From contig NZ_WJIE01000006.1 in NCBI RefSeq assembly GCF_009649845.1, forward strand, positions 310,001-374,000: 64,000 bases of DNA. Reading direction: 5' to 3'. Source of the DNA: Polyangium spumosum. Lineage in GTDB: Bacteria > Myxococcota_A > Polyangia > Polyangiales > Polyangiaceae. This document shows positions 9,478-27,428 of the stretch, piece by piece. Position numbers and translations under genes: made by a program. The notes beneath the pieces were generated by a model. It did no database searches, was not told the origin of the DNA, and saw nothing but the letters and a program-made list of their open reading frames with translations. Position 1 is the stretch's first letter; the number at the start of each line of letters is the position of its first letter.

Positions 9478-9509
9478 GCGCCAACCCTGGCCGGGCGTCC
9501 AACAAACTT

Positions 9510-10556
9510 TCAGAAGACGTCGAAGACGCCCACGATGCCGCCGCGTAGGACGACGGTGACCGATGACATCTTCCAGCTCTCGGTTCCATCCAGCCGAATG
9601 ATCGCAGCCCGATCGTAGTGGATCGTGTCGACCCCGATCCGCGCCCTCACCGGGCCAAGCCGCATCTCGAGACCGCCCCGCAGGCCCACGCCAAACGCGA
9701 CATCGGTGAACCGGGTTTCGTTCGTCCCGGCGGCTTCCAACCAGAAGTGCGCGATCTGGCCGGAGATGCAGGCCTCGAGCAGCAAGCGGGCCCCGTACAG
9801 GCGCGGATGAACGCAGGGCAGAAGGGCGACGCCGAGCTGCGACGCGACCCGCGTTCCGTCACGGCCTGGTAGATCGTACCGCCCCTCGAACGATGCAGAA
9901 AACAGCGACCACCGAGGCCCTGCCCCCAGCGTGAAGCTCGGGGCGACCCCCGGCGCAGCCATGAACGCGACTCCCGCGCTGATCGAGACCATGAGCTGCG
10001 GAGTCCATGGCGACCGAGCTGGAGAAGGACGCGGCGGCGGGGGGTCTTCACGATGGGCCGCGTGCGCTGCCGGCGGCGGCTCCACAGGATGTGCGGGCGG
10101 CGGCAAGTCGGTCGGCGCCGTCGCGGCCGGCGGTGGGGCCGCCGTGGGCGGCTGCGGGACGGTCCCGGGATCCACGATGTCGACCAGGAAAACAGCCGCA
10201 TTCTCGATGAGGTGGTCACACCGGGACGAGGGCGCCCAAGCCTTCGGCGTCGCGACGATCTGCCCCTTCTCGTCGCGCGCCTCGATGAGCGCCTCGAGCT
10301 GCTTCGGCGTGTTCACCACCGTCACCGAGATTGTCCGCGTCGCCGCGTCGTTGAACGGGTCGTAGCCCATGCGCGACGCGACGGAGAGGCGCAGCTCCTT
10401 CTTGTCGGGGCAGAGCTCGGCCCCAGGGGCACGCACGTACTCGAGACGCCACGGCGGCACCTTCGACGGCTCCCCTCTCGCGGGAGCGACGAACCCGAGG
10501 ACGGCGGCGACAAACAGGCCGCTGGCCGTCCGGTGGAGCGGGAGGACGACGCGCAT
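9510..10556 (-). CDS. Secreted protein with Pro-rich linker and beta-rich C-terminal domain
   Basis: A 348-residue protein. A signal peptide (TASGLFVAAVLGFVAPARG) is followed by a domain with one Cys pair (AELCPDKKEL ... SSRCDHLIENAAVFLVDI), a long Pro/Ala linker around residues 135-185, and an alternating-hydrophobic C-terminal half (FTLGAGPRWSLFSASFEGRY) that looks like a small outer-membrane beta barrel. The protein ends in Phe (GVFDVF), as outer-membrane proteins often do. It is transcribed ahead of the sigma factor gene and divergently from a lipoprotein gene. No family name is certain. Confidence 0.75.
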   Translation of the reverse strand: MRVVLPLHRTASGLFVAAVLGFVAPARGEPSKVPPWRLEYVRAPGAELCPDKKELRLSVASRMGYDPFNDAATRTISVTVVNTPKQLEALIEARDEKGQIVATPKAWAPSSRCDHLIENAAVFLVDIVDPGTVPQPPTAAPPPAATAPTDLPPPAHPVEPPPAAHAAHREDPPPPRPSPARSPWTPQLMVSISAGVAFMAAPGVAPSFTLGAGPRWSLFSASFEGRYDLPGRDGTRVASQLGVALLPCVHPRLYGARLLLEACISGQIAHFWLEAAGTNETRFTDVAFGVGLRGGLEMRLGPVRARIGVDTIHYDRAAIIRLDGTESWKMSSVTVVLRGGIVGVFDVF

Positions 10557-10621
10557 CGTGCGTTTGTCCCTCGGAACCGGCGCATTGTCGTTGCCGGGAT
10601 CAAGGACTATCGTCCTCTACC

Positions 10622-11797
10622 ATGCGAGGCGTCGCGGTCGTGGTTTTTCTGGGGACGCTGTTCGGTGTCGGGCTCGCGAGCTGCGGCGACCCTCAGTACT
10701 TCGACTTCACCACGAAGTGCACCGACGAGGAGGACCGCGTCGTCCCTTGCTGCGGGCCGCCTGGTAAGAAGTACGCGTGTCCGCCGGACGCGGGTGACGA
10801 TGGTGGAGACGACGGCGGGGCGGAGGCCGGCGATGATGATGGAGGCCCAGAAGCGGGCCCAGACGCGTCTTCTCTGGTCTGCCCCGGGCAGTGCGTGCCT
10901 GCGGGCGGCGGCGGCTGGGGCGAGACCCCGTCGTTCGTCTGGATGGGCAAGGAGACGGACACGCCGGCTCCTCCGCTGCCCGGCATGGCCTGGGTGACGT
11001 GGGTCGATGTCGTGTTCGCCGAGCCGGTTTGCCCGGTCTGCTCGTGCGTGCCGCCAGATGTCAGCTGCACGATGCCGAGTTCGTGGAGCGCGAACTCGAC
11101 CGTTTGTCAAGACCTACCTTCGCCCTACACCACGCCCTTCGACGCACCGATCGGGTGGGACGGATCTTGCACGGCGGCAAACCCGATCCCGGGAGGCGCG
11201 ATGTGCGAGGGCGGGCCGTGTGTCCGCTCGTTGAGCGTAGAGCCGCCTGTCGTGGCGCCATGCGTGGCCGAGCCGGCCATACCGCCCGAGGGCCACCCTT
11301 TGCCCCTGCCCGTGCGAACGAAGGTCATCGAGTACTCGCCCGCGCAGATCGGGGCCTGCGAGGGTGGGATCGATCGGTGCATCATGAAGACCCCGCCAGG
11401 CTACCGGCTCTGCCTCGTGGCCTATGGGCCCCTGGCCGCCCAAACCTGTCCCGAGGCGTGGCCGGAGCGGCACGACGGCTGGAAGAATGTAGAGGAGAAG
11501 CGGTTCTGCTCGCCGTGTTCCTGCGGGCTTCCCGAGGGAGGCTTCTGCGAGGTGCGGGTCAAGGCGTACGCAGATGATGCATGCGGCAACGAGCGGGGCA
11601 GCCTCGTGCTCACGTCGAGCGAGGGGAGCAAGTGCGTCGATCTGACCAGCGGCACCGCGCTTGCCGGGAAAACAGCCGAACTCCTCTCGAGCACCCTTGG
11701 TGCTTGCCAGCCGAGCGGTGGCGACATCATCGGCGAGCCGTTGACCGAGGTGCCCGTGACCTACTGCTGCGTCCCGGATCTGGTCCCGCCGCCGTGA
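10622..11797 (+). CDS. Cys-rich lipoprotein
   Basis: A 391-residue predicted lipoprotein: signal peptide with lipobox GLASCG, then an Asp/Gly-rich linker (DDGGDDGGAEAGDDDGGPEAG) and a domain with about 30 cysteines that are probably disulfide-bonded outside the cytoplasm. Pairs such as CPVCSC, CSPCSCG and YCCVPD recur. No catalytic motif is evident. Proteins of this style are numerous in Sorangium-like genomes. It converges with the lipoprotein gene at 11822-12664, with a 24-bp gap. Confidence 0.78.
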   Translation: MRGVAVVVFLGTLFGVGLASCGDPQYFDFTTKCTDEEDRVVPCCGPPGKKYACPPDAGDDGGDDGGAEAGDDDGGPEAGPDASSLVCPGQCVPAGGGGWGETPSFVWMGKETDTPAPPLPGMAWVTWVDVVFAEPVCPVCSCVPPDVSCTMPSSWSANSTVCQDLPSPYTTPFDAPIGWDGSCTAANPIPGGAMCEGGPCVRSLSVEPPVVAPCVAEPAIPPEGHPLPLPVRTKVIEYSPAQIGACEGGIDRCIMKTPPGYRLCLVAYGPLAAQTCPEAWPERHDGWKNVEEKRFCSPCSCGLPEGGFCEVRVKAYADDACGNERGSLVLTSSEGSKCVDLTSGTALAGKTAELLSSTLGACQPSGGDIIGEPLTEVPVTYCCVPDLVPPP

Positions 11798-11821
11798 TGG
11801 CCACCGAGCCGGCGCAGTTCG

Positions 11822-12664
11822 TTACGTGCAGAAGCCGTTGAGGCAAACCTCGGAAGCGCAGGCAGCGTTTTCCGTGCAGGGCTGGCCAAAGTCCAACGCG
11901 CAGCGCCCGTTTCCGTCGCAGACGTGGTCCCCGGCGCAGATCACGTCTGGATCGACAGCGTTGTCGCCATCATACGTTCCGTAAGGGCGGGGTATGCATT
12001 CACCAGTATCGAATCCGCAATTGTAACAGAGTGGGCACGGTTTCGTGCAGCAGAGGCCGAGTTCACATGCACCGCTCGCGCAATCGGCGTTCGTCTTGCA
12101 GAACGGGCCGAAGCAAACGGGGCAGTGCCCGTAGGCCTTGCCGCAGTCGATGCCGGTTTCGTCTCCGTTCTGGATCCCGTCGTTGCACCGAGCGCAGAGA
12201 CCCTCCCAGCAGTAGCCCCCGGGGCAGTCTGCATCCACGTTGCACGTCCCCGGGCACAGCGGGCACGAGCCGCCGCAGTCGACGCTGATCTCGTCCCCGT
12301 TCTTCACCCCATCATCACAGCGCGAGCACACCTTCCCGGTCTCGCACGTGTGCCCGGCCTGGCAGTCCGCGTCCTGCAGACAGCCGATGCACGTGCCCGC
12401 GCCGTCGCACACGCCGGGGCACTTTTCGCCGCTGGCGCACGGCTCGATGCGGCAGCGGAACCCCACGCGCTCGTTGAAGCGGTGGCAGGTGCCGTCGCAC
12501 ATCCAGCCCGTGCAGAAGGGAAAGTCGCCGCAGTCGGTGGCCTTTTCGCACGGGCACCCCTCGCCCCCGTCCGCGCAGGATGGGTCGCTGCATGAGGGCA
12601 AGACGAAGAAGGCCGGAAGAAGCAGGGCGAACGCGCACGCGGCGACGAAGCGGCGAAGGGACAT
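11822..12664 (-). CDS. Cys-rich lipoprotein with repeated DGxxNGDE motif
   Basis: A 280-residue lipoprotein: signal peptide ending FFVLPSCSD, then some 40 cysteines. Two near-identical modules CDDGVKNGDEISVDCGG and CNDGIQNGDETGIDCG belong to the repeat (NGxETDVDCGG) widespread in myxobacterial surface proteins, and CPGGYCWEGLCARC-type spacings recur. It is likely exported to the outer membrane; the function is unknown. It is transcribed divergently from the sigma-like gene at 12933. Confidence 0.8.
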   Translation of the reverse strand: MSLRRFVAACAFALLLPAFFVLPSCSDPSCADGGEGCPCEKATDCGDFPFCTGWMCDGTCHRFNERVGFRCRIEPCASGEKCPGVCDGAGTCIGCLQDADCQAGHTCETGKVCSRCDDGVKNGDEISVDCGGSCPLCPGTCNVDADCPGGYCWEGLCARCNDGIQNGDETGIDCGKAYGHCPVCFGPFCKTNADCASGACELGLCCTKPCPLCYNCGFDTGECIPRPYGTYDGDNAVDPDVICAGDHVCDGNGRCALDFGQPCTENAACASEVCLNGFCT

Positions 12665-12932
12665 GGGGCCTCCTTGCCTCACGTCATGCCCCTGCGCCCG
12701 GCCGGCGTCGAGGGAGGATCGCGGAGCACCCGGGTTCGTCCGCGAACATGAACCGGGGAAGAAACGCTCGGGAGGCGGTCCTCCAGGAGGAGCAAGGACC
12801 GCCATAACGAAGGGATAAGAATACAGGGGAAGACCCCCATCGATCCATTCGTCTACCGCGCCTTCGTGGCGCGCTTTCCTGCGCGTCATGTGAGGTGAGG
12901 GCCTCCGTGTGCGCGCTCCCATGGAGGACCCC

Positions 12933-13709
12933 GTGACGACCACGATTCCGAAGAACATTCGCCAGGAGTTCGAGAAGAAGATCCGGCGCGGCATCTTCAA
13001 CCCCGTCGCGCGCTTCCTGCACGAGAACATCCGCGAGGAGCGGATGCAGGAAGCCCTCGGCTTCACCTGGGCGCTCTACAAGCGGCATGCCGAGGCGGGC
13101 GACATCCTCGACGACGCCCTGCTCGTTCACGCCTGCCGTCTACGCGCCATCGACCTGAGCCGTCATCTCGCCTCCGGCGATCGGACCCAGAGGCTCAAGG
13201 ACGTCTTCGACCAGCGCAACTACAACCGCCGCCGCGTCGAGGTTCTGGGCCTCGGCGAGTACGTCGTGGAGTTCGAGGACAACCCGCAAATCGACAACGT
13301 GGAGTCGAACGCGGATGTCGGCAGGGCACGGGCATACAGCCTGAACCCGACGGGTCGGATCATCAGCGCCATCAGCTTGAACGAGTGGCTGGCGACGCTC
13401 GCCCCGCGGGACCGCCTGCTCATCGAGCTGCGCGCCGCCGGGCACGACCTCGACGAGATCGGCTCCGTGCTCGGCATGGACAGGGTCGCGGTCTGCCGCA
13501 GGGTCAAGGCGCTCGGCGAGCTCCTGGCCGAGCACGCCGGGATGCCGGCCGCTGTCCATCGCAGGCAGCTCAAGCGGGCGAAGGCGAGCGAGGAGCCGGC
13601 TCCGGAGAGCGGCGTCCGGGCGAAGACGCGGGGCCGGCCCAGGAAGACGCCGGCTCCGGTCTCCACCAAGAGAGACCGGCCCTCCCGGTGGGCACGGCGC
13701 GCGGCGTGA
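12933..13709 (+). CDS. Sigma-70-like regulator with AT-hook-type tail
   Basis: About 258 residues. The N-terminal half resembles sigma region 2 in helical layout (LHENIREERMQEALGFTWAL and VHACRLRAIDLSRHL), and the segment LAPRDRLLIELRAAGHDLDEIGSVLGMDRVAVCRRVK is a region-4-like helix-turn-helix. The tail carries TRGRPRKTPAP, an AT-hook-like motif, in a basic stretch. I chose GTG 12933 because GGAGG lies 5 bp before it; ATG 12921 and GTG 12909 are longer options. A strong terminator follows. With the sigma factor at 8.3-9.5 kb it makes two sigma-like proteins on one mobile element. Confidence 0.75.
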   Translation: MTTTIPKNIRQEFEKKIRRGIFNPVARFLHENIREERMQEALGFTWALYKRHAEAGDILDDALLVHACRLRAIDLSRHLASGDRTQRLKDVFDQRNYNRRRVEVLGLGEYVVEFEDNPQIDNVESNADVGRARAYSLNPTGRIISAISLNEWLATLAPRDRLLIELRAAGHDLDEIGSVLGMDRVAVCRRVKALGELLAEHAGMPAAVHRRQLKRAKASEEPAPESGVRAKTRGRPRKTPAPVSTKRDRPSRWARRAA

Positions 13710-13813: not shown

Positions 13814-14665
13814 TCAGGAGAGCGAGCGGCCAAGCGGCTCCGGATCAGTGAAAATCACCTTGCCCGCATTTAGGTCGCCAGTTCCTAGCTCGCCCACGAT
13901 TCGGATGCGAAGGTCTGGCCAGTCGAGGTAGGCACCCTTGTCCAGGTGCTTCAAGCCGGGCAGAACGATCTCCCACGTCCCGTCCTTGAACTGGTGCAGC
14001 ATGGCAGCGTGCAGTTCACTCATGAGGCGGTCCCGGGCGGACCTGGGCAGCCGCAATGCATCTACCCACTCATGCACGTGCTCGAGAATCACCGACTTCA
14101 CCTGGCGGTCGAGCGCGCGGCTCTGCGCAAGGACGGTCACCAATGTGAGGTTGTTTTCGCGGCGGTGGATCTTGACGGCTATGCAGGCAGTACCGAGTTG
14201 CTCTCGGAGCCGCTCCGGAAGCCGACCAATCCCCCCGGCAGCTTCGACCTCCCACTCCTGGACCTCGAGCACGCCATCCCAAATCCAAGCCGTGATCGAG
14301 CGTCCCTTGTACACAGTGTGATCCCAGCGGAACTCCGTGTAGGTGGGCTCGACGACCGTGATGGGCTTGCCGGGCTCCATCCTGGTATCAACGTACTCGA
14401 GATCTGGATACTCCACCTTGGCGCGTGTTCCTGGCTGGCCCGATCCAGGGGGTAGCCGCTCGATCGCGTACCTGAGCTGGCACTCTGCATCGAATGCCGG
14501 AAGCGTGGCGATATGGGGCAGGTCGATGGACATGGCCTCCGTGTGCGGGGAGTCGACGGTCACCCCGGCAGCGACTCGAACATCCCGAAGGGCAGCCTGA
14601 TAGCTCTTGCCCGTCTTCTCCATGTGCTCGCGAACGCGACGCTTCAGGTTCTTCTGCGCAGTCAT
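13814..14665 (-). CDS. Hypothetical protein
   Basis: A 283-residue soluble protein that I do not recognise. The N-terminus (MTAQKNLKRRVREHMEKTG) is basic and helical, similar to the start of small DNA-associated proteins. The middle holds several beta-like segments (ITAWIWDGVLEVQEWEVEAAG), and the C-terminal half includes HVHEWVDALRLPRSARDRL. No signal peptide or catalytic motif is seen. The ATG at 14663-14665 is preferred over the upstream start at 14749. It is the next minus-strand gene after the helicase-polymerase fusion, 685 bp away. Confidence 0.65.
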   Translation of the reverse strand: MTAQKNLKRRVREHMEKTGKSYQAALRDVRVAAGVTVDSPHTEAMSIDLPHIATLPAFDAECQLRYAIERLPPGSGQPGTRAKVEYPDLEYVDTRMEPGKPITVVEPTYTEFRWDHTVYKGRSITAWIWDGVLEVQEWEVEAAGGIGRLPERLREQLGTACIAVKIHRRENNLTLVTVLAQSRALDRQVKSVILEHVHEWVDALRLPRSARDRLMSELHAAMLHQFKDGTWEIVLPGLKHLDKGAYLDWPDLRIRIVGELGTGDLNAGKVIFTDPEPLGRSLS

Positions 14666-15350
14666 CTCGGTTCTCCACGCGCCACAAGCACTCAGCCCCC
14701 GCCTGGAACCTGCAGCTGTGAGAACACGACCACGCCTACCCGAGGACATGATCCCCTTCGCTCCGGCGCGAGGGCCCCGCGGGGGTGGGCCGAGCGGAGT
14801 GAGGCGTGGGTAGCCGCCTGTCTGGGCGTATATTCTCCCGTTCAGCTCGAGTCAAGTTGGATCGAGCCCATGACACCTACGCACCGGATTGGGCCAGAGC
14901 ACCGCTTGCATACCGGGCGCTCTCGGCATCCTCGCGCAAGGACCCGCGAGCCGAGTTTTACTCGTCTCGTCACGACCGGGATGCGGACGCTTCGGCCCCC
15001 GCGTTTCCCCCAACGCGGCCCGCGTCGGTCCCGGGCCCCTGGAGAGCAAAACCTCGGCTTTCCGGCCACTTGCCGGCCCGGACGAGGTCTGGGGCTCAAG
15101 TCCCAACGAAACGTCCAGGTGCCTGGTCCCGAGGGAGTCATAGGGACGACGCGCAGAACAACCGGGAAGCCCCTGCCAGCCAGAACGGGCTTCGTCATGC
15201 GGAAAGCCCAACCTTTGCGGGTAGTTGCACCGCATCGGCGGACAAGGACCGGGGGGAGGGGGGGTTGAACGCCGCACCTAAGATCCTGCGCCCGCCACTC
15301 GCGCACGTGCCCATGGTGCCGTTCGTCCCGTGCATGCATGGTTTCCTCGC
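14666..15350. other. 685-bp region without a convincing gene
   Basis: This lies between the helicase-polymerase gene and the hypothetical gene. It contains a 7-bp hairpin, CCGCGTT-TCCCCC-AACGCGG (14999-15018), and GC-rich runs including GGGGGGAGGGGGGG near 15250. Its position after a replication operon makes it one candidate for a replication origin, but no iteron set is obvious. A weak reading frame crosses it (see next entry). Confidence 0.4.
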
Positions 15351-15354
15351 TCAT
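14842..15354 (-). CDS. Possible ORF coupled to the polymerase gene (doubtful)
   Basis: A 170-codon frame whose ATG overlaps the stop of the helicase-polymerase gene (ATGA), the spacing expected of coupled genes. The protein is arginine- and proline-rich with no recognisable domain; its C-terminal part contains VCKRCSGPIRC. Codon use is less biased than in the neighbouring genes, and competing frames are also open here, so it may be noise. Confidence 0.25.
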   Translation of the reverse strand: MSEETMHARDERHHGHVREWRAQDLRCGVQPPLPPVLVRRCGATTRKGWAFRMTKPVLAGRGFPVVLRVVPMTPSGPGTWTFRWDLSPRPRPGRQVAGKPRFCSPGARDRRGPRWGKRGGRSVRIPVVTRRVKLGSRVLARGCRERPVCKRCSGPIRCVGVMGSIQLDSS

Positions 15355-18300
15355 CCCCTGCCGGCTTCTTTGGCCCAGGTGTCGCGCACCTCGGATTCCA
15401 CGACGATCGGCACGGCCTTCACGAAGGTCGACATGCCCTCGACCATGCAGGCCACCACGATCTCCCGCACCTCCTCCGCGTGCTCCTCGGGGGCCTCGAC
15501 GAGGAGCTCGTCGTGGATTACGAGCAGGATGCTGCCGCGGAGTTCCCGGAAGCGTGGATGGTTGTGGAGCAGGACCAGCGCCTTCTTCATGCCATCCGCG
15601 GCCGTTCCCTGAATGCCGTGGCTCAGTCGTCCGCCGTATTCATCGTCCTGATCGGGGAAGTATCGGAGCCGGCCGCTGCCGGTACGCACGATGAATGGCA
15701 TCTCCTCCTGCATGCGTCGTTGCCATTCGGCGATCCCTGGGTAGGCTGCGAGGAACAGCTCCTTGAATTCTGCCGCCTCGCTGATCGACAGCTCGATATC
15801 GTAGTTCTTGCGTGCGTACGCCACGAACGACTCCGCGCCCATGCCGAACGTGAAGCCGAAGTTGACGGCCTTGGCGCGTCGCCGCTGCTCCGGTGTGACT
15901 GCCGCCTCGTGCACGCCCATCAGCAGCGAGGCCGTCAGCCGGTGCGGGTCGCTGCCCGCGTGGAAAACGTCGATCAGCTTCTTCTCCCCGATCCGGTCGG
16001 CGAGGACGCGGAGCTCGATGGCGGCGTAGTCGCTCACGACGATCTTGTTCCCAGGTGTCGCCCGGATGCACCTGCGCACCTCGGGCTCGCGCGGCAGACC
16101 CAGGAGGTTGGGAGTACGGCAGGAGAAACGTCCCGATGAGGCCCCGAGTTGGTCCAGTGCAGGAACGACGCGCCCGTCCATGAACTGGCCCAGGGAGCGA
16201 AGCACACCTCTGCCCGCACCGACCACGAAGCCGTTGATGTGGCGGTAGCGCACGAGCTGGGCTACCGGCTCGATGTGCATGTAAGGAGCTAGATCTTCGC
16301 TCTTCGTGCGCTCGACCGGGATGCCGTGCCGCCTGAGCGCCAGGAGCACCTCGGCGCCGTTGTCAACGTTCTGAACGCCGAGGACCAGGGCGAGATGCGT
16401 GCGCAGCCTCTGCGCCTCTCCGGTCCATGCCGCCACCACCTGCTCCCAGCGATCAAGGTCGACCGGAACCCCCACGAGTTCCATGCCGCTGATCACGGGG
16501 AGCAACGGGTTCTCCAGCGCGGCAACCTTTTCGAGTTCGTCGGCCTCGAGCGCCTCGCGCATCGCTTCCTCGAGCGCCAGCAGCGGCTTCACATCTCGCA
16601 CGAGCTCACCGAACCGCGCATCGAAGGCGGGCTCGCTCGCAGCCACGGGATCGCCAACCAGACGCGGCACGCCGGCAGCCTCGCACGTGCTGGCGAGGGT
16701 GAAGAACCGCTCGTCCTCGAGGTGCAAGCCGCCGTCGAGGAGCTTGCGCGCAATCATCGTGTCGAAGTGTGCGCGGGTCTCCACCTCGAAGTCCGAGGCG
16801 AGACGCGCGAGCGTCGGCTTGAGGTCGTGGCCCACGATGAGGACCTCGCGGAGCGCATCTGCTACGGCTCCGAGCCCGTCCGTCGAGCGCACGTCGATGA
16901 CGTGGACGTCCCCGTTGGGCAGGGCGATCCCGACCACGCGAGTCATCTCGAGCGGCGCGTCGGGGCCCGTCGTGAGCACGGCGAGCCCAACCTTTCCGGC
17001 CCCCGTGATGGCCGCAGCCAGGGCCGAGAGGGTTGACGTGTCGCGGTGGATCAGGACAGCCGGAGAAGTGCCGCCAAAACCTGCCGCGCGAAGACCGTCA
17101 GCATCGTCAGCACCGTCTGCCTTGGCGAGATCATCGTCATGATCAGCCTCGTGAAGGGGCATCCAGGGCTGACGCTCGAGGCCATCCACATCGCCGGTCG
17201 TGGACATCGGACCGTCAGCCTGATGCGCGGCTGTTACAGCCCCGCTGGCCGCCGTTCCTGCCACGCCGACGATGCTGACGATTCCTTGCGGCGCTGTGCG
17301 GATGAGCCGCAGCCTACGGACCCCGACCTTTCCGCTCCGAGGCAGGTCCTCGTAGGTGATCCCCACCGCCCGCAGGGCAGGGGCAGCACGCCGTAGCCGA
17401 TTCGTCAGGGTGTTGGCAGCCTGCGGCCAGTCGCGCGTGTGCAGCACGTGTACCGGCACGAACTCACGCAGCATGGTGTGGAGCTCGGTCGCGCTGCCCT
17501 CCCAGATGCCGTCTGGCTGCCGCGCGAGCAGTTCGCGTACCGCCATGGCTACGACGTCGCCCTCGAGCGACTGGTCGACGGCCTGGGCTCGGTTGCCAGA
17601 GTACGCCTTGATGAAGGTGCCGCGCGGCCAGCCGAACGCGGGCTCGGCCGCCGTCGCCCACAGCGCAAAGTCGGCCATCCGCGGCTTGAACGGCAGCGTC
17701 ACGCTCCCGATGTTCCGGAGGGCGGTGCTCACCCCGTCGAGGAGTGCGCCGAGGATGCGCGGTGAGGCCTGCTCGAACGAGGTCCAGAAGGTGGCCTCGT
17801 CCTGCCGTCTGTCTTCGGGGATCGGCGGGAGGGTCGACACCATGCTGCGATCCGCGAGGTCTGCGCGCACAGCGATCGCGTCGATGCCGTTCAGGATGAC
17901 GGGCCTGCTCGCGCTAAAGAGGATCTCATCATCGTCCGTGAACAGCTCCCGGGTGGAGAGTCCGCCGCCGGTGGCGATGCAGCAGATCGCATCGGAGAGC
18001 CAGACCGGCAGCCCGGAGAGGTTGTCGAATGACATCACCCACCCGTTTTGCGCCGCGATCATGAGGTCGCGCTCGTCGTGCGGGGCACGGCGCAGGGGCG
18101 CCGTCGATGGGTCGACGAGACGCCGGAGCACGCGCGCCGTGGTGGACTTCGCGCTCGCCTGTTCGCCTTGGAGGGCCAGGATCACGTACGGGCCGCGTGG
18201 TTTCATCGCGCCGACGAGCCACGACACCAGCAGGTAGAACGCCTCGTCGGAGCCGACGTTCACGTAGGGGCGCAGCTCGGTGACGTTCCCCCCGGGTACG

Positions 18301-18827
18301 GGCACCGGCAGCGGCTGCATGCCCCGGGGCCGCCTGAACTTCACGGGCGGGTTCGCAACGATCTGCCAACCACTCGACGTGATCTCGACAGCTCGCCAGT
18401 CGCGGTCGCCGAGGTCGAGGTACCCGGCGCCGTTCTTCGCCGCGACGCGCACGTGCACGGGCTCCTCGTCTCCCTCGAACTGGGCACGGGCTTCCAGGAG
18501 CGACAGGGCCTCTTGCAGGGCTTGCGTGTTCGGGGCGCTGGCGGTGTGGTGGAAGTACCGTCGTACCAACCAGCGCGAGAACTGCTTGCTCCGGACCGGC
18601 CAGTTCTCCTTGTGGCCCTTCTCCTCGATCGTCGCGAACGCGCGGCCGTCAGGCGTGTGAAACAGTTCGACATCTTTCGCGAGCTCCACGAGCTGCGTCG
18701 CGATCGAGGGGCCCTTGCCCTTCTTGGAGCCCTTGCCGCTCGACGGCTCGGTGGCGCCGTTGCCCTCGGCTGGCATCGGGATCTCCTCCGAGAGCTCGAA
18801 GGACAAAACCTGTTCTTCTTGGCTCAT
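15351..18827 (-). CDS. AAA+ helicase-like / family A DNA polymerase fusion
   Basis: A 1158-residue replication protein. Residues ~190-500 are a helicase-like ATPase of the type found as a stand-alone phage/plasmid protein: Walker A in LQGEQASAKSTT (~220-230), Walker B-like VMSFDNLSG (~265-272), and ILNGIDAIAVRADLADRS. A low-complexity linker (~515-590) precedes an exonuclease-like region (~595-720) whose first acidic motif (DxE) is not visible. Residues ~775-1158 are a family A polymerase: motif A SDYAAIELR (932-940), motif B RRRAKAVNFGFTFG (982-995) and motif C IHDE (1104-1107), with the usual SGRFSCRTPNLLGLP template-binding segment. The ATG at 18827 overlaps the primase stop (ATGA). All polymerase catalytic residues are present. 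A fused helicase and polymerase, next to a primase, would form a compact replisome for the element. Confidence 0.93.
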   Translation of the reverse strand: MSQEEQVLSFELSEEIPMPAEGNGATEPSSGKGSKKGKGPSIATQLVELAKDVELFHTPDGRAFATIEEKGHKENWPVRSKQFSRWLVRRYFHHTASAPNTQALQEALSLLEARAQFEGDEEPVHVRVAAKNGAGYLDLGDRDWRAVEITSSGWQIVANPPVKFRRPRGMQPLPVPVPGGNVTELRPYVNVGSDEAFYLLVSWLVGAMKPRGPYVILALQGEQASAKSTTARVLRRLVDPSTAPLRRAPHDERDLMIAAQNGWVMSFDNLSGLPVWLSDAICCIATGGGLSTRELFTDDDEILFSASRPVILNGIDAIAVRADLADRSMVSTLPPIPEDRRQDEATFWTSFEQASPRILGALLDGVSTALRNIGSVTLPFKPRMADFALWATAAEPAFGWPRGTFIKAYSGNRAQAVDQSLEGDVVAMAVRELLARQPDGIWEGSATELHTMLREFVPVHVLHTRDWPQAANTLTNRLRRAAPALRAVGITYEDLPRSGKVGVRRLRLIRTAPQGIVSIVGVAGTAASGAVTAAHQADGPMSTTGDVDGLERQPWMPLHEADHDDDLAKADGADDADGLRAAGFGGTSPAVLIHRDTSTLSALAAAITGAGKVGLAVLTTGPDAPLEMTRVVGIALPNGDVHVIDVRSTDGLGAVADALREVLIVGHDLKPTLARLASDFEVETRAHFDTMIARKLLDGGLHLEDERFFTLASTCEAAGVPRLVGDPVAASEPAFDARFGELVRDVKPLLALEEAMREALEADELEKVAALENPLLPVISGMELVGVPVDLDRWEQVVAAWTGEAQRLRTHLALVLGVQNVDNGAEVLLALRRHGIPVERTKSEDLAPYMHIEPVAQLVRYRHINGFVVGAGRGVLRSLGQFMDGRVVPALDQLGASSGRFSCRTPNLLGLPREPEVRRCIRATPGNKIVVSDYAAIELRVLADRIGEKKLIDVFHAGSDPHRLTASLLMGVHEAAVTPEQRRRAKAVNFGFTFGMGAESFVAYARKNYDIELSISEAAEFKELFLAAYPGIAEWQRRMQEEMPFIVRTGSGRLRYFPDQDDEYGGRLSHGIQGTAADGMKKALVLLHNHPRFRELRGSILLVIHDELLVEAPEEHAEEVREIVVACMVEGMSTFVKAVPIVVESEVRDTWAKEAGRG
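17094..17117. repeat. Shared TGCTGACGATGCTGACGGT motif, copy in polymerase gene
   Basis: ACCGTCAGCATCGTCAGCA (17094-17112) occurs again exactly at 19532-19550 in the primase gene. A related inverted copy, GACGATGCTGACGAT, is at 17268-17282. Both exact copies encode DADDADG in low-complexity linkers, so the DNA sequence may be what is conserved. Confidence 0.5.
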
Positions 18828-19909
18828 GACGCCTCCTGGAGGAGGGCTTCTGCCCAGTCCTTCCCGCTGGCGGGGCGGATGCGGACGACGCGAGCCGCGC
18901 CCGCGGTGTAGAGCTTGGAGGCGACCCGCTCGGCCGCGCGGTCGCCGGCCTCGTCGCGATCGAAGGCCACAAAAGCCGTTCGCCCCTGAGCGAACTCGGC
19001 CCACGCGCGGCGGAAGTTGGCTACGCCTGGCACGCCGACGACGACGCGCGGGACCGCGTGCTTCTTGTAAAGCGCACGCAGGGCGAGCACGTCGAACGCG
19101 CCCTCGACGAAGACGATGCCAGCGGGGTTGTCCACGCGGGCAGCCGTCTCGATCCCGTAGGGCCACGTAGCTGCGCCGCCGCGCGGGAACACGTACTTCT
19201 GCACCTCGTCTTCCGCGCAGCGAACGAGTCGTCGCTGGAGCGTGGTGATGCGGCCGGAGGGATCCCGCCACGGGATTAGCACCCGGTGATCAGGCCACGT
19301 CAGGCCACCTGGCGTCGTGACGAATCCGCTCTTCTGCCAGTCCTCGAGACCGTGCGCGACGATCACCCGGTTGATGATGCGAACGGCGTCCTCGACTGGC
19401 TCCGGGAGCGCTCCCCAGCCATCGGTCACCGCCTCGTCGAGCAGACCACGGGTGGTCAGGTAGGCAGACGCATCGAGAGCCGCTGCGAGCGGGCAGGCTT
19501 CGAGGAGCGTCTTGGCGACCCGAGCGCGAGCACCGTCAGCATCGTCAGCATCGGACACCTCCGTTCTGGTCGTGGTCCCCGCGGTTGTGGCGCCCGCGGC
19601 GATCCGTCGTCCCTCGGCAAGCACCGCGCCGAACTGCTTCGTCACGTCGAGGCCTCGGACCTGCGCGATGAGGGCGAAGACGTCGCCGCTCGCACCGCAG
19701 GCGAAGCACTTCACGCGCACGGAGCCATCGGGCGCCAGCGTGACCGAGCAGGAGGGATTCTTCTCAGCGTGCCATGGGCAGAGCACGAGCAGCCCTTGCT
19801 GCTGCACGCGCGCGCCGTTGTGCAGGCCGAGCTCCTTGCAGATCGCTGGCACCTCGGTCAGCGCCCGCTTGAGTTCCGCCGCTGGCATCGGGATCGGGGA
19901 GGCGGCCAT
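18824..19909 (-). CDS. CHC2 zinc-finger / TOPRIM primase
   Basis: A 361-residue DnaG-type primase. The zinc finger is CPWH...CFAC (Cys44, His47, Cys68, Cys71) with the typical AEKNPSCSV between; the TOPRIM domain has Glu269 in IVFVEGAFDV and the DxD pair in FVAFDRDEAGD (Asp317, Asp319). It lacks the helicase-binding C-terminal domain of cellular DnaG, which fits a partner helicase encoded by the next gene. A linker (SDADDADGARAR) carries the shared repeat word. The ATG at 19907-19909 follows GGAGG by 8 bp; the gene starts 2 bp after the small HTH gene and overlaps the helicase-polymerase gene. Confidence 0.92.
   Translation of the reverse strand: MAASPIPMPAAELKRALTEVPAICKELGLHNGARVQQQGLLVLCPWHAEKNPSCSVTLAPDGSVRVKCFACGASGDVFALIAQVRGLDVTKQFGAVLAEGRRIAAGATTAGTTTRTEVSDADDADGARARVAKTLLEACPLAAALDASAYLTTRGLLDEAVTDGWGALPEPVEDAVRIINRVIVAHGLEDWQKSGFVTTPGGLTWPDHRVLIPWRDPSGRITTLQRRLVRCAEDEVQKYVFPRGGAATWPYGIETAARVDNPAGIVFVEGAFDVLALRALYKKHAVPRVVVGVPGVANFRRAWAEFAQGRTAFVAFDRDEAGDRAAERVASKLYTAGAARVVRIRPASGKDWAEALLQEAS
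19532..19554. repeat. Shared TGCTGACGATGCTGACGGT motif, copy in primase gene
   Basis: The first 19 bp (19532-19550) match 17094-17112 exactly. The motif resembles the half-site beside the XRE operator (7375-7385). It could be a recognition site for the element's regulator or replication initiator, or an accidental result of similar linkers. Confidence 0.5.
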
Positions 19910-19911
19910 GG

Positions 19912-20139
19912 TCACGACCTCCCCTTGCCGGGAGCGGCGGGCAGCGCGCCCTCGCCGTGTAGCCGTTTCCACGCCTCATCGAGACGTGCGGCGCAGGTGG
20001 AGGAGAGGGGGTCGCCGACCAGCCAGCGCTTGGCGGTTCGAGGATCAACGCCCGCGTGTACGGCGAGTAGCCGGAGCTGATGCGCGTTCCACGGTGGCGT
20101 GCTGGGGTGTCGAGTTCGTGTTGAGCGAGTGCGCTTCAT
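19912..20139 (-). CDS. Small HTH protein at head of replication operon
   Basis: A 75-residue basic protein. The segment QLRLLAVHAGVDPRTAKRWLVG is a helix-turn-helix of the type that reads DNA or sets promoter choice, and the N-terminal MKRTRSTRTRHPS tail is positively charged. Two bases separate its stop from the primase ATG. It could regulate the replication operon or assist initiation. The ATG at 20137-20139 was chosen over a start 10 codons earlier. Confidence 0.7.
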   Translation of the reverse strand: MKRTRSTRTRHPSTPPWNAHQLRLLAVHAGVDPRTAKRWLVGDPLSSTCAARLDEAWKRLHGEGALPAAPGKGRS

Positions 20140-20204: not shown

Positions 20205-21125
20205 TCAGGCCGGGTTCGACGTGTCGCTACGACGCACGCCGCCTTTCCGCGACGTCTCCCACTCCTCGACTAACTTTGGGCTGAAGCTGTTCTTCAAGCT
20301 CTTCGTGCTCGCGCCGAAGACGTACAGGACCGCGCGCGCCACCTGGACCACCGTGGCGTTACCCAACTTCATGAGCCTGCGGATGGCACGTGCCAGACGC
20401 CTGCGATCTTCGACGATACGCATGTAAACCGCCGGACGCATGAGGAGCTTCGCGAACGCCGCGTTCGTGACGAGCGGGAAGAGGATGCGCAGGGCGATCT
20501 TCTTGGCGCGTTTGCCGGCCTCATCGTTCGGGGTCTTGGTCGCCAGGGCCTCATCGAGAAGACGCGGCTCGAACTTGCCGTCCGTTTCCCGTTCGTCCGG
20601 GTGCACGCGACCTTCGAGCGCATCGGCGACAACGTCGAGAAAGACCCGCTTGCTGCCCTTCAGGCTGTACTTCGCATCCAGGTCGTAGTGCGTCGACGGC
20701 AGCAGGGGGACGTCGTCGGACGCCAGTTCTTTCATCACCATCAGAGCTCCGCGCTCGAGGACGCGGACCGCTTCCGCGACGGCCTTCCTGGGGGGATCAG
20801 CCGTCCGCTCGCGTGCCATGGCGATCATCGCCCCCGTGACGTTGACCATCGTCAGGAACGTCGGGCGGAGGTCGACGCCGACGTAGCTCGAGCTTTCGTT
20901 GAGCACGTTCAAGAGCTTCACGAGCTGCTCGAGGACACGCCGCTGAGCCGCCGCGCTGCGGTGCTCCTCGGGCAAGAACGAGAGGGGCTCGTCGGGGTCT
21001 CGGATGAGCCGCGCGAGGTCGTCCGGGCCAGGTGAGGATGCTCTGGTCGCTTCTGGGGCGCTGCTTCGAGCCCTGCTCTTGCGGGTGGAAGACGCCGCGC
21101 GCGGCGGTCGACTGCGTGATGCCAT
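20205..21125 (-). CDS. Hypothetical protein, basic N-terminus
   Basis: A 306-residue protein with an N-terminal Arg/Ser-rich tail and a mostly helical body (RRVLEQLVKLLNVLNESSS, RIVEDRRRLARAIRRLMKL). No family recognised; no signal peptide, membrane segment or catalytic motif. The C-terminal third (FGASTKSLKNSFSPKLVEEW) is basic. It lies upstream of the replication operon on the same strand and divergent from the HTH-integrase pair, so a role in the element's replication or partition is possible, but only its position argues for it. Confidence 0.65.
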   Translation of the reverse strand: MASRSRPPRAASSTRKSRARSSAPEATRASSPGPDDLARLIRDPDEPLSFLPEEHRSAAAQRRVLEQLVKLLNVLNESSSYVGVDLRPTFLTMVNVTGAMIAMARERTADPPRKAVAEAVRVLERGALMVMKELASDDVPLLPSTHYDLDAKYSLKGSKRVFLDVVADALEGRVHPDERETDGKFEPRLLDEALATKTPNDEAGKRAKKIALRILFPLVTNAAFAKLLMRPAVYMRIVEDRRRLARAIRRLMKLGNATVVQVARAVLYVFGASTKSLKNSFSPKLVEEWETSRKGGVRRSDTSNPA

Positions 21126-21242: not shown

Positions 21243-21821
21243 ATGCAAGGCCGTACGTCTCGTTCAGATCTTCTCGTCGATGCCGAAGAACCGGCGCGCG
21301 GCGAACACGTGCAGTGCGTGGATGCGGACGAGCCCACCGACAAAACGAGAGGCTACGGCGGGCATAAGAACAGCGAGGAATCCGGCCATCCCGTGCATCA
21401 AGCGCACGACCTGAAGGGCACGGAGCTCCTCTCGGTGGAGGAGGTCGCGCGCACGTTGCGCGTCACCACGAAGACGGTTCGCCGCTGGATCAAGGCGGGT
21501 CTGCTCGTCGCCCACCGGATCGGATCGAAGGTCGTGCGCGTCGACGCCTCGAGCGTGACGCGTCTGATCGAGGCGTCGCGCATTGGCGCCTCCCCTGGGG
21601 ATCAAACATGGCAGGGAGGAAGCGAAAGAAGTACATCCGCGGAGCCCCACACCTCTTCCGGCAGCGCGGAAAGGCCAAGATCTGGTCCGCGCTCTTCGAC
21701 GGCCGCGAGGTCTCGCTCGGCACCGCCGACACCGTCGAGGCCCAGCGTCGACTCCTCGAGCTGGCCGAAGAACGCAAGCGAGCTGCGCGAGCACCTGCGG
21801 CGCCTCCGCCGCCCCTCCTGA
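21243..21821 (+). CDS. MerR/excisionase-like helix-turn-helix protein
   Basis: The central part, ELLSVEEVARTLRVTTKTVRRWIKAGLL, then GSKVVRVDASSVTRLIEA, is the winged HTH of excisionases and similar DNA-binding proteins. The frame remains open to 21821, so the product is 192 residues and overlaps the integrase gene by 214 bp in another frame. The overlapping Ser/Arg/Pro-rich tail looks like an overprinted sequence with no fold of its own. It probably acts as the excision-directing factor. The start is assumed at ATG 21243. Confidence 0.7.
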   Translation: MQGRTSRSDLLVDAEEPARGEHVQCVDADEPTDKTRGYGGHKNSEESGHPVHQAHDLKGTELLSVEEVARTLRVTTKTVRRWIKAGLLVAHRIGSKVVRVDASSVTRLIEASRIGASPGDQTWQGGSERSTSAEPHTSSGSAERPRSGPRSSTAARSRSAPPTPSRPSVDSSSWPKNASELREHLRRLRRPS

Positions 21822-22965: not shown

Positions 22966-23769
22966 GTGACCTCAAGGCTCAGCCCGTTCCGCTCGCCTCA
23001 ACCCCCTGAGGTGCACCTCGAGCGACCTCCGCTCGTGCAGGTCATCGCGCAGGTGCGCTTTCCTCCCATCCTCGCACTGGGCCGCCAAGAGTCGGTTGCG
23101 CCCTTTCAGGAGGCGATCAGGCGGCGTTATCCGATCCTGCGACCAGAGTCAGTTCCTGAGCGCCTGCTTCTTGGAGTTGACGGGCCTGTCGTTCAGCCGA
23201 GCACGATGCTCTGGCGATTCCACGACAAAGATGACGTTTGGCGCGTAGCGCTTACGACCAACTCTATCTCGCTCCAGGCGAACAAATACAGTAGCCGAGC
23301 AGACTTCTTTGAGCGATTACATCAATTGCTCGATGAACTTGTGAGAGTCACCGATCCGGTTGCAGCCGGCTATGAGCGGTTTGGCATTCGCTATGTCAAC
23401 CGCGTGCGCCATCCGGAACTGGAGCACCTCTCGCGGATGGTTCAGCCTGAAGTTCTGGGAGTGGCCAATATCGGATTCGGCCCAGAGCTAATTTTTTCCG
23501 TTTGTGAAAGCAGCTTTGCCGTCGACGATGCCCAGCTACGAGCTCGCTGGGGTCTGCTTCCCCCTCGCGCGACAACAGATCCGACCGCGATCCGAGAAAT
23601 CGATGAGTCATCATGGATTCTTGATCTGGACATGTTTGTGGAGAAACAGCCGGAATTCGATGCGTCGGTTGTGGTGGAGCGAGGCCAGCGTTTTGCCGAG
23701 ACCATATACGCGTTTTTCCGCTGGTGCGTGACGGACGAATTTTTGCGGACCTACGGGGGCCAAGTATGA
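22966..23769 (+). CDS. TIGR04255 family protein
   Basis: A 267-residue protein of the sporadically distributed TIGR04255 family. The N-terminus carries PEVHLERPPLVQVIAQVRFPP (shortened here to its key parts), followed by RYPILRPES, LWRFHDKDDVWRVALTTNSI, YERFGIRYVNRV and ESSWILDLDMFVE, all in the order seen in this family. Start is GTG 22966. The biochemical function is unknown. The next two genes follow with ATG overlap or 4 bp spacing, so the three are an operon. Lower GC than neighbouring genes and position beside attR mark it as cargo. Confidence 0.82.
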   Translation: MTSRLSPFRSPQPPEVHLERPPLVQVIAQVRFPPILALGRQESVAPFQEAIRRRYPILRPESVPERLLLGVDGPVVQPSTMLWRFHDKDDVWRVALTTNSISLQANKYSSRADFFERLHQLLDELVRVTDPVAAGYERFGIRYVNRVRHPELEHLSRMVQPEVLGVANIGFGPELIFSVCESSFAVDDAQLRARWGLLPPRATTDPTAIREIDESSWILDLDMFVEKQPEFDASVVVERGQRFAETIYAFFRWCVTDEFLRTYGGQV

Positions 23770-24443
23770 TGCTTCTGGAGCACACTAATCCGATTGATGC
23801 TATGCCTACCGGCGCGGGCATCGGCGCTCGTGCGATGAAACAGGTGTTTGTTATCGTCGCAGCGGGGGCACTCACGATGCCGGGAACTGGTACGATATTG
23901 GCCGAGAAGGTTGCAGGATTGTCCCCTATGTGGACTGAAGAGTGGACGCGCGGCAGCCTGCCCACCGATGCGCACGCTCGCGAAGCGACCGAGGAGGACC
24001 AAGCGGCGCTGGTCATGGAACTGCGTCGACGGACCGGACTCACTTGGGAGAAGCTGGGGGATCTGTTTGGGGTTGATCGTCGGTCGGTGCACTTTTGGGC
24101 GAGTGGTCGAGCAATGAATGCCACCAATCGTGAAAAATTGGGACGCATACTGGCGCTTGTACGGCGGCTTCCTGCAGATAGCCAGGCGACCCGCGCCTGG
24201 CTGCTTTCGCCGGACAATAACGCCCGCTTGCCTTTCGACCTCCTGCGTGACGGGCAATACGACGAGTTTGTGCTTTCTGGCGCCTCTCCCATCAAGCCCT
24301 TCGAGCGACCCAAGGTTTCGCCAGAGGTTCTGCGTGCACGTGCACCGCGCCCCCCGGAGGAACTCGTGGGAGCTCTTCACGACAGCGTGCACCGCGAAAG
24401 CAGCAAACTCCGCGCCGCAATTCCCTTGAAGAAGCGCTCCTGA
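23766..24443 (+). CDS. HTH protein, second gene of TIGR04255 cassette
   Basis: A 225-residue protein whose central part is a helix-turn-helix: LVMELRRRTGLTWEKLGDLF, then GVDRRSVHFWASGRAM and NREKLGRILALVRRL. The first 60 residues are weakly hydrophobic (AMKQVFVIVAAGALTMPGTG) and the C-terminal third is basic and proline-rich. It may be the regulator or a DNA-binding component of the cassette. Start ATG 23766 overlaps the stop of the TIGR04255 gene (ATGA); ATG 23769 is equally possible. Confidence 0.78.
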   Translation: MMLLEHTNPIDAMPTGAGIGARAMKQVFVIVAAGALTMPGTGTILAEKVAGLSPMWTEEWTRGSLPTDAHAREATEEDQAALVMELRRRTGLTWEKLGDLFGVDRRSVHFWASGRAMNATNREKLGRILALVRRLPADSQATRAWLLSPDNNARLPFDLLRDGQYDEFVLSGASPIKPFERPKVSPEVLRARAPRPPEELVGALHDSVHRESSKLRAAIPLKKRS

Positions 24444-24447
24444 GCCC

Positions 24448-25311
24448 GTGGACCGCCTCACCCCCGAAGATCCTGAAGTCGCCCGCATTGACAATGCGCT
24501 TGCGGAGTGGCGGCAGGGAGATGTCGTGCGTGGCCCCGTGGACTTCATCCACATGGGGGATCCAGCTCGTCCCCTGACCAAGCTTGCTGGAGAGGCGCAG
24601 GGAGATGGCCCAACGGTTCTCGTAGGGGAAGAGATCGGGCTCGTGGTGCTCACGCAGACGTGCGATCTCGTGCGGACCTGCGTCGATCGCCCCTTCGTAG
24701 AGGTCGCGCCAATCGTTGAGGTCGACGAGAGTAAGCTGCCACAGATCGAGCGAGGTTACCTCCTGAAGTATGCACACATTCCGGCCCTTCAGGAGGAACG
24801 ACTGGTCGCAGATCTTGATCGCGTCATGACGATCGAGAAGTCCATCATCTCTGACTGGGTGCGCATTCCTGGATGCCGCAACGATGCTGAAACTCGAGCA
24901 TTCGCCGAAGCGTTGAGGCGCAAGCGTGGTCGCTTCGCCTTTCCCGATGACTTCGTGGAAGCATCGCAGGCTCTGCAGAAGCGCCTCAAGGACAAGCATG
25001 ATAAGGGATCTGAGGAAGGGCAAGCTCTCCGCGCATTACGCGAGATCAGGGTGACTGCCGCACCGTCTTGGAATGAAGACCAGGTCCGGCTGACCTTCTG
25101 GTTTATCAGGAATCCAGATCAGCACAACTTTGCAGGAAAGCCGTGGGACGAGTACTTGCAGCGTTGGCTCGCGCTGTTTCAGAAGACCGATCGTCTCGTG
25201 GAGGCGGAGGGCCTCGTCGTCACTCTCGCCGACATGAGCGCTCAGGACTACGTGGAGAGCGACCCGCTCGACCTTGACCACTTGTCCTTGAGAGGACAGC
25301 GTGCTGGCTGA
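24448..25311 (+). CDS. Third gene of TIGR04255 cassette, unknown
   Basis: A 287-residue protein of unknown function. The N-terminal half contains WRQGDVVRGPVDFIHMGDP and GLVVLTQTCDLVRTCVDRP; a conserved-looking QTCDLV segment recurs in proteins found near other defence genes, but I cannot assign a family. The middle has FAEALRRKRGRFAFPDDF and the end is acidic. No signal peptide or membrane segment. GTG 24448 starts 4 bp after the HTH gene stop. It is the last gene before attR, so the operon is a compact, self-contained cargo unit. Confidence 0.75.
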   Translation: MDRLTPEDPEVARIDNALAEWRQGDVVRGPVDFIHMGDPARPLTKLAGEAQGDGPTVLVGEEIGLVVLTQTCDLVRTCVDRPFVEVAPIVEVDESKLPQIERGYLLKYAHIPALQEERLVADLDRVMTIEKSIISDWVRIPGCRNDAETRAFAEALRRKRGRFAFPDDFVEASQALQKRLKDKHDKGSEEGQALRALREIRVTAAPSWNEDQVRLTFWFIRNPDQHNFAGKPWDEYLQRWLALFQKTDRLVEAEGLVVTLADMSAQDYVESDPLDLDHLSLRGQRAG

Positions 25312-25417: not shown

Positions 25418-25476
25418 TTTGAAAACCGCCGTACCCGGAAGGGTACCAGGGGTTCGAATCCCTTCTCCTCCGCTGA
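25418..25476 (+). repeat. attR core: tRNA-Ser 3' fragment, copy B
   Basis: 59 bp identical to 5154-5212. Only the 3' part of the tRNA is present (anticodon loop onward), so it is not a functional gene. The sequence after it, CTGATTTTCG, is shared with the third copy (31681-31690), not with copy A. Confidence 0.9.
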
Positions 25477-26380: not shown

Positions 26381-26418
26381 GACACCCTCCTTCACGTCAA
26401 CGAATGATCTGTGCGTGC

Positions 26419-27423: not shown

Positions 27424-27428
27424 GGTGC

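Follow-up and report, generated by a model that had tools for sequence, protein, structure and literature searches.

A predicted D5/SF3-type helicase fused to a family A DNA polymerase in a tRNA-integrated element of Polyangium spumosum, and a candidate origin in its linker DNA

Can a mobile element unwind and copy its DNA with a single protein chain, and where would its replication begin? The question is raised by a gene of Polyangium spumosum on contig NZ_WJIE01000006.1 (positions 310,001 to 374,000; this stretch of 64,000 nucleotides is the window, and coordinates below are positions in it). The gene joins a predicted D5/SF3-type AAA+ helicase to a family A DNA polymerase (PolA), and it lies in an element integrated in a tRNA-Ser gene. 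We consider it probable that the locus is the replication module of this element, with a self-loading helicase, an origin in the linker DNA and a tethered PolA, and that it arose by placement of the helicase in front of the polymerase.

One chain with a helicase half and a polymerase half

The fusion gene (15351–18827, minus strand) is a single uninterrupted frame from its ATG and encodes 1158 amino acids (aa); a 1306-aa open reading frame (ORF) at the same place was rejected as merely a longer open frame. Its helicase part comprises residues 1–510 (17298–18827; ordered from about residue 39), its linker residues 511–594 (17046–17297), and its polymerase part residues 595–1158 (15354–17045), the latter with a degenerate 3'–5' exonuclease domain and a family A polymerase. 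The G+C content of third codon positions (GC3) was 0.88 in residues 1–510 and 0.84 in the polymerase part, against 0.61 for the linker between them. We scanned the protein against Pfam (E ≤ 1), PHROGs (E ≤ 0.1) and NCBIfam, and its two halves were folded separately. A full-length mixed alignment (A7) was discarded for folding because PolA rows were misplaced onto the helicase half.

The helicase half was recognised by its predicted fold. Residues 1–520 matched no family in Pfam or PHROGs at these thresholds, and in NCBIfam they gave a single chance-level match (residues 204–239, E 0.22, far under the cut-off). The AlphaFold2 model of residues 39–510 had a mean predicted local distance difference test (pLDDT) score of 92.1, and a Foldseek search with it returned E-values as low as 2.2e-10. 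The best fold match was the SaPI5 primase-helicase (7om0; Z 20.6, 382 residues, rmsd 5.2). Poxvirus D5/E5 proteins followed, with most rows at Z 17.0–17.9, and then ASFV PrimPol (16.4), NrS-1 (13.5) and SCCmec Cch (13.1). Nine residues were invariant in 90 aligned helicases (R127, P176, K227, D239, N269, D279, D323, R327, R383), and D268 of Walker B was kept in at least 90% of these sequences. The fusion retains the Walker A lysine, the Walker B DN and DLxDR; we take K227 to belong to Walker A, D268 to Walker B, and R327 to be the likely arginine finger. Two points weigh against so specific a family assignment: MCM helicases also reach a Z of about 13 against the model, and because residues 1–515 match no Pfam family, membership in D5/SF3 rests on predicted fold and motifs. 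On this basis, residues 39–510 are predicted with confidence to form a D5/SF3-type AAA+ helicase.

The polymerase half was recognised by its sequence. Pfam DNA_pol_A (PF00476) matched residues 853–1152 (E 2.6e-55; 188.4 bits against a cut-off of 34.3), and polymerase matches in the three libraries were confined to residues ~595–1154, together with an exonuclease domain under the cut-off (16.5 against 23.6 bits in Pfam). Alignments tested with the patterns D-Y, R..K..F and H-D-E showed intact copies of what we take to be motifs A (DYAAIELR), B (RRRAKAVNFGFTFG) and C (IHDELLVE). The model of this half (pLDDT 87.7) had Plasmodium apPol and Aquifex pyrophilus PolA as its best folds, and sequence comparison also placed these two closest. 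Thus, the first-pass annotation, which was made from the letters alone and had described an AAA+ helicase-like ATPase joined to a family A polymerase with intact motifs A, B and C, was borne out. The domain search that it proposed for residues 1–510 and 595–1158 identified the helicase by predicted fold and the polymerase by Pfam.

The exonuclease site was lost. Its DxE was missing in the window PolA and in all ten aligned relatives from the same order, and was kept in seven of seven other rows long enough to include it (two further ones end before it). The window polymerase therefore lacks the DxE of a Pyrovirus-type proofreading PolA, and we ruled out a proofreading PolA for this fusion. Judged from its residues, the polymerase half would be active in synthesis but without proofreading.

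The fusion gene is preceded by a primase gene (18824–19909, minus strand) whose stop codon overlaps the fusion ATG by 4 nt (ATGA). The 361-aa primase was found in Pfam, PHROGs and NCBIfam, and has the CHC2 zinc ribbon (residues 40–91) and TOPRIM domain (Toprim_2, 267–356) of a DnaG-type primase. Because it stops at the TOPRIM domain, there is no space for the C-terminal helicase-binding domain of that type, in agreement with the earlier description of a coupled upstream CHC2/TOPRIM primase without such a domain. The primase ATG is in turn 2 nt past the stop of a gene for a small basic protein of 75 aa (19912–20139, minus strand), which has a 36% identical relative upstream of another PolA fusion. 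The earlier note had called it a small helix-turn-helix (HTH) protein; the gene and its position stand, but the HTH was seen by eye only, and the protein had no Pfam match at E ≤ 1 and none in PHROGs. At the head of the operon is a 306-aa protein (256 aa from an inner start; 20205–21125, minus strand) of unknown family in Pfam, PHROGs, NCBIfam and PADLOC scans.

A rare fusion and its relatives

We asked how often this helicase is joined to a polymerase. No other listed match covered both halves in a survey of the order (183 genomes, at most three candidates scored per genome) or in a survey of the phylum (377 genomes overlapping the order set, two per genome). Helicase relatives were found on 31 plasmid records by tblastn, at 40 loci in a peptide-pattern scan of GTDB genomes, and at 58 and 54 loci in two overlapping scans of IMG/VR; a viral-contig scan with the single window protein gave no match, and alignments were required. 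Merging near-duplicates left 123 distinct proteins, window excluded; 87 had 2 kb or more of downstream sequence, and 119 had the 300 bp that follow the domain. One of the 123 was fused to PolA (L099) and one had a separate PolA gene nearby (L011), which upholds the earlier statement that this helicase usually occurs without a polymerase. Among the best 80 of 177 loci in a scan with a PolA alignment, none carried the helicase domain.

The second fusion, L099, is on an IMG/VR contig of 4,147 bp. It has the same order of helicase and PolA and is 35% identical to the window protein over a 1,028-column alignment; its exonuclease retains DTET. Because ORFs behind the fusion match the small and large terminase subunits, L099 is very likely a phage. 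The survey for the same fusion that had been called for thus found this one viral case, and its single chain contradicts the idea that homologs are always two separate genes.

The two fusions probably formed independently, as judged from sequence comparisons, because the window PolA is only 32% identical to that of L099, versus 43–51% to nine DUF927-fused PolAs, and because the L099 helicase pairs with that of another locus, L070 (FastTree support 95). In a 64-row PolA tree, the window grouped with eight same-order PolAs fused to DUF927 and with the split L027/L058, a clade of 10 rows (100/100). L099 fell in a different clade (100/98) with phage proteins of the Prim-Pol/AAA_25-PolA type; the tree program warned that long branches join L099 to its group and that its composition is odd.

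The helicase family as a whole occurs on plasmids, in phages and in contigs whose assignments span many bacterial phyla and archaea; the FastTree helicase tree left the window helicase unplaced, so that no donor was indicated. N-terminal extensions of its members (n = 51) matched Prim-Pol in 16 cases, Toprim_2 in 10 and DUF3854 in three, and mechanically chosen upstream ORFs (n = 45) matched Toprim_3 in eight, CHC2 in eight and Prim-Pol in six. On the archaeal plasmid L007, the helicase domain is fused behind a Prim-Pol (matched at the Pfam cut-off); on plasmid pFP11, a relative adjoins a gene annotated primase/polymerase; and phage Zeta1847 encodes a TOPRIM primase-helicase in one gene and a PolA-like protein in another. 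Because extensions and upstream ORFs match primase domains, we concluded that this family, nameless in the profile libraries searched, is primase-associated and most likely comprises replicative helicases.

The nearest same-order relatives of the window PolA (42–51% identical) are the C-terminal parts of DUF3854-DUF927-PolA proteins with open frames of ~1,590–1,710 codons. Nine such proteins have the whole architecture by similarity (L005, L042–L047, L050 and L051), and Pfam found DUF927 in each of the three scanned (L005, L042, L046). One of them, L005 (1573 aa, 48% identical), is in the same genome as the window. Pfam found no DUF927 in the window fusion, and on this ground we ruled out that it is a DUF927-PolA polyprotein. 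Besides belonging to the same clade and sharing the exonuclease DxE loss, several relatives resemble the window in their surroundings. In two genomes, G148 and G152, an identical tRNA-Ser lies ~3 kb from the DUF927-PolA fusion. In G152 the contig goes on to the window's right flank (the G148 flanks were found on different contigs), and a tyrosine integrase stands beside the G152 tRNA-Ser, with a near-identical one seen by eye in G148. A sigma70-region-4-like gene that is convergent with the window fusion (12921–13709, plus strand) has copies near the fusions L005, L043 and L046 (93%, 88% and 86% identical), and the G152 contig has a partial one, also convergent with its fusion. A block of four genes at 8284–12664 (an ECF-type sigma factor and three unknowns) is conserved in order and orientation on the G152 contig, at 35–69% identity and 19 kb from the DUF927-PolA fusion. 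At another locus, L058, the DUF927 and PolA parts are split between two genes that overlap, with an integrase behind them that is 48% identical to that of the window.

Because the order's closest PolAs are fused to a DUF3854-DUF927 primase-helicase instead, a swap of the helicase that precedes a conserved PolA is likely. Several results speak against it. The G148 and G152 integrases had no BLAST match to that of the window (E ≤ 1e-5), and the stretches examined there held no relatives of the window primase, the 75-aa protein or the 306-aa protein. The branching of the window PolA within its 10-row clade was also weak (86/46). That is, the window and the G148/G152 elements have a site, a PolA and some genes in common, whereas integrase and primase differ: the relatives carry a primase-like part and DUF927 in one chain, unlike the separate CHC2/TOPRIM primase and D5/SF3-type helicase of the window.

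Helicase-polymerase chains have been described before, and we compared them with ours from the passages of each paper that were available. One is the Pyrovirus 3173-type PolA polyprotein of Thermocrinis Octopus Spring virus OS3173 (DUF927-PolA, 1,606 aa; PMC7689252), which has its helicase N-terminal and its PolA C-terminal in one chain, with a PolA akin to Aquifex and apicoplast polymerases. It differs in that its helicase is DUF927 rather than a D5/SF3-type fold without Pfam match, its polymerase is described as proofreading, and it belongs to a capsid-bearing virus. The TV-Pol-D5 protein of the Sputnik virophage (V13; PMC2579912) likewise unites a superfamily-A-related polymerase with a D5-like helicase; there the polymerase is N-terminal and the helicase C-terminal, and the minimal TV-Pol has no nuclease domain. 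We ruled it out as a model for the window fusion since order and domains differ. Protein GP55 of lactococcal phage 1706 also joins helicase and DNA polymerase in one chain, but with a family B polymerase and an AEP primase within it (PMC12205980). In the available passages of three PolA papers (PMC9069017, PMC6302109, PMC11348598) we found no helicase-PolA fusion, and a review describes the N-terminal DUF927 helicase as limited to viral enzymes (PMC10423840). As far as that passage goes, the chromosomal DUF927-PolA proteins, some of them clearly in mobile elements, extend its viral-only statement.

Among phage proteins, L135, L137, L138 and L149 (1,317–1,348 aa) each combine an AAA_25 helicase, an exonuclease and PolA in one chain; Prim-Pol was recognised in three of the four. 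These proteins are possible single-chain replisomes. On four other viral contigs (L129, L156, L181, L198), a uracil-DNA glycosylase-superfamily domain was found at the N-terminus of the phage PolA. We concluded that the helicase-PolA fusion as such is already known, from the Pyrovirus protein as described in PMC7689252, the nine same-order proteins and the AAA_25-PolA phage proteins. What is new is a D5/SF3-type helicase fused to PolA, and the idea of an origin in the linker.

Repeats behind the helicase domain

The helicase family was examined for repeats in 119 distinct loci, the window not among them. The 300 bp after the helicase domain ranked in the top 5% of the locus for repeated 9-mers in 78/119 loci, compared with 6/111 for upstream controls and 1/119 inside the domain. 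At least four copies of one 8-mer were present after the domain in 68/119 loci, versus 40 of 3,394 control windows. Of 50 loci whose tails are no longer than 45 aa, 26 had the signal strictly past the stop codon. Because it persists there, the array is a feature of the DNA in short-tailed relatives. Among these 68 arrays, 60 had copies on both strands, and CGTC/GACG was in the top 8-mer of 48, against a background of 6.2%; examples are ATCGTCACC in L021, ACCGTCACA in L022 and CGTCCGCAC in L068. The family thus has iteron-like arrays just past the helicase domain, often with a CGTC core and noncoding in many loci.

Both D5/SF3-PolA fusions have repeats of the CGTC type at the corresponding place, in DNA that codes for the linker. 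That of L099 contains eight copies of GCGGACGC on both strands. In the window linker, five copies of CGTCAGC (17096, 17105, 17168, 17213 and 17274; 17096–17280, both strands) are putative iterons; five within 185 bp is the highest count of any 7-mer per 300-bp window of the element. A longer form, GCTGACGRT, had 7 occurrences in the window where 1.6 were expected (0 of 100 shuffles reached 7), and when 21 sites were thrown at random, five fell this close in 3 of 200,000 trials; both motifs were picked after being seen.

Other observations weigh against reading much into the window array by itself. CGTCAGC in the window as a whole was at chance (21 versus 20.8), 30 of 1,274 windows, each 300 bp long, had some 7-mer in at least five copies, and the linker's total repeat score was only on a par with that of 13377–13427 in the element. 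Two CGTCAGC copies are also in the primase gene, between zinc ribbon and TOPRIM (19534–19549), and low-complexity linkers can produce DNA repeats by themselves. The window array is modest and weaker than many in the family. Since the motifs were chosen post hoc, CGTCAGC is at chance frequency and 30 of 1,274 windows are comparable, the window alone is insufficient for a claim of an origin.

The other fusions were less uniform. Eight of nine DUF927-PolA linkers contained a window that reached the 96th percentile or more, in each case the best among several, and most of the nine had arrays of other motifs (e.g., nine copies of GGCCCTAC in L046, in three frames and on both strands). Because they carry other motifs, the data suggest that the origin travels with the helicase type. 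Some of them were weak or non-independent, which counts against a general rule: the L005 array had three copies at most, L042 and L045 were identical copy for copy, and L046, L050 and L051 shared a motif. Of seven Prim-Pol/AAA_25-PolA linkers, not all independent, five had the top or tied-top repeat window, one ranked third and one had none. In L058, with its split genes, no array at the gene junction was among the top windows, a result that counts against extending the origin rule to split genes.

We cautiously favour the reading that the fusions keep an origin inside linker-coding DNA, the frame reading through an ancestral iteron origin, and that helicase and origin are exchanged as a unit. 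The repeats fit this in the two probably independent D5/SF3-PolA fusions and, less firmly and with other motifs, in most DUF927-PolA and some AAA_25-PolA fusions. Lambda O is neither a helicase nor a polymerase. Its gene contains the lambda origin, with iterons within the initiator's coding sequence, according to the passage available (PMC6022878). A paper on SCCmec, as far as available, places the origins of SaPI and SCCmec against the 3' side of helicase genes, and has Cch2, a helicase with a D5-related region, bind repeats directly 3' of its gene (PMC7581432). Both halves of the idea thus have precedent. The SCCmec operon of CCPol, MP and Cch2 resembles the window in combining an A-family polymerase and such a helicase in one mobile-element operon, and its proteins bind each other. 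It differs in that the genes are separate, CCPol-MP is self-priming, and the iterons adjoin the helicase gene downstream, outside the open frame (PMC7581432). Our searches, confined to open-licence papers, gave none that describes an origin in the linker of a helicase-polymerase fusion.

The element and its replication

The element spans 5213–25476 (20.26 kb) in a tRNA-Ser(TGA) gene (5122–5209, plus strand), with ends defined by 59-bp exact direct repeats that we read as attachment (att) sites, the left copy at 5154–5212 and the right copy at 25418–25476. It encodes a tyrosine integrase (PF00589; 21608–22675, plus strand; found in Pfam, PHROGs and NCBIfam), and so has both hallmarks of a tRNA-integrated element. 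An excisionase-like HTH_17 protein (21243–21821, plus strand; Pfam, PHROGs) has a frame that overlaps the integrase start, and the true starts are uncertain. Both flanks were matched in all five congeners, and because they are 8.7 kb (G150), 54 kb (G149) and 117 kb (G151) apart where both are on one contig, the tRNA-Ser site is an integration hotspot. These exact boundaries, the exonuclease loss and the low linker GC3 with its repeats had been overlooked in the first-pass annotation. It had called unusual an integrating element with its own primase, helicase and polymerase but no visible capsid or transfer genes. Scans of the element proteins recognised no gene for capsid, packaging or transfer (libraries varied, two small ORFs were unscanned and several proteins match nothing). 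Islands that bring a primase-helicase of their own but lack a complete capsid gene set (SaPI, P4-like) form an established class of mobile element, and for that reason the one described here stands out only by having a PolA of its own.

Other genes were noted in and beside the element. At 6448–7340 a metallopeptidase-like protein (PHROG metallo-protease, PADLOC CapP match) stands beside an HTH_3/HTH_31 regulator, and three CGTCAGC copies just upstream of this region (7361–7382) are perhaps an operator. A three-gene cargo cassette of lower G+C lies between the integrase and the right att repeat (22966–25311); it matched no family in Pfam (bar a weak HTH), PHROGs (two of three proteins scanned) or PADLOC. 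A degenerate third att copy at 31626 ends a second insertion of ~6.2 kb (25418–31684), which holds an AAA-ATPase_like/PDDEXK_9 protein (29631–31370) and an ORF (28923–29399) that partly matches PD-Lambda-1, a candidate defence protein.

Three other explanations of the locus have to be weighed. The protein may be a working helicase-polymerase whose linker repeats are a by-product of a low-complexity hinge rich in Asp, Ala and Gly, with the origin elsewhere, e.g., in the 685 bp of noncoding DNA downstream (14666–15350). We hold this to be rather unlikely. In its favour, the linker is low in complexity and GC3, its array is a modest one whose repeat score is matched elsewhere in the element, and in relatives with tails longer than 45 aa the repeats are in coding DNA (signal past the stop codon in only 4/65). 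Arrays beyond the stop codon in short-tailed relatives and copies on both strands count against it, and 14600–15400 shows only two-copy short repeats; around the operon start, too, repeats had only two or three copies.

That the module serves chiefly repair or defence-like DNA synthesis, its helicase half being a DNA-remodelling ATPase, seems improbable. The lost exonuclease site would suit such a role, and the primase matches the PADLOC RTasDnaG-like model (E 3.6e-28), but that model shares DnaG domains, and the match therefore says little. The element genes scanned with Pfam included no reverse transcriptase, and the integrase, the att repeats, the initiator-type helicase fold and the family-wide iteron-like arrays indicate replication. 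Hardly credible, finally, is that the fusion is an artefact or a decaying chimera, whether through an assembly join, a missed stop or death of the replicase. No second match to both halves was listed in the overlapping order and phylum surveys, and GC3 drops in the linker. Against this stand the catalytic residues kept in both halves and the stop-free frame, which also answers the earlier concern about a missed stop or assembly error between residues ~510 and ~590. An assembly join is unlikely because GC3 is alike and high on both sides, the gene is in the interior of an 821-kb contig, and the independent viral fusion has its parts in the same order.

Returning to the replication module, we propose a course of events that builds on the observed frame, predicted folds, motifs, operon, ends, relatives and arrays, and that concerns activities, iteron binding, replication after excision and evolutionary order. 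The element would excise from the tRNA-Ser gene and then replicate. The helicase half would act as a self-loading initiator that binds iterons within the stretch that encodes its own linker; by analogy with its structural relatives, it may open the duplex and assemble as a hexamer. The separate CHC2/TOPRIM primase would lay primers, and the tethered PolA half, without proofreading, would extend them beside the motor. The module would thus work similarly to those of SCC and SaPI, with its own polymerase attached. It probably arose when the helicase, perhaps together with its origin, was placed before a PolA that is otherwise joined to a DUF3854-DUF927 primase-helicase.

A single-chain helicase and exonuclease-deficient polymerase could serve isothermal DNA amplification. 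For the biology of these elements, our data indicate where a widespread D5/SF3-like helicase family, nameless in the libraries searched, is likely to have its replication origin, and they suggest that mobile-element replication modules are rebuilt by changing the helicase before a conserved PolA. If the reading is true and the replicase hinge holds the origin, a single 3.5-kb gene would link initiation with unwinding and synthesis and so form a minimal replicon.

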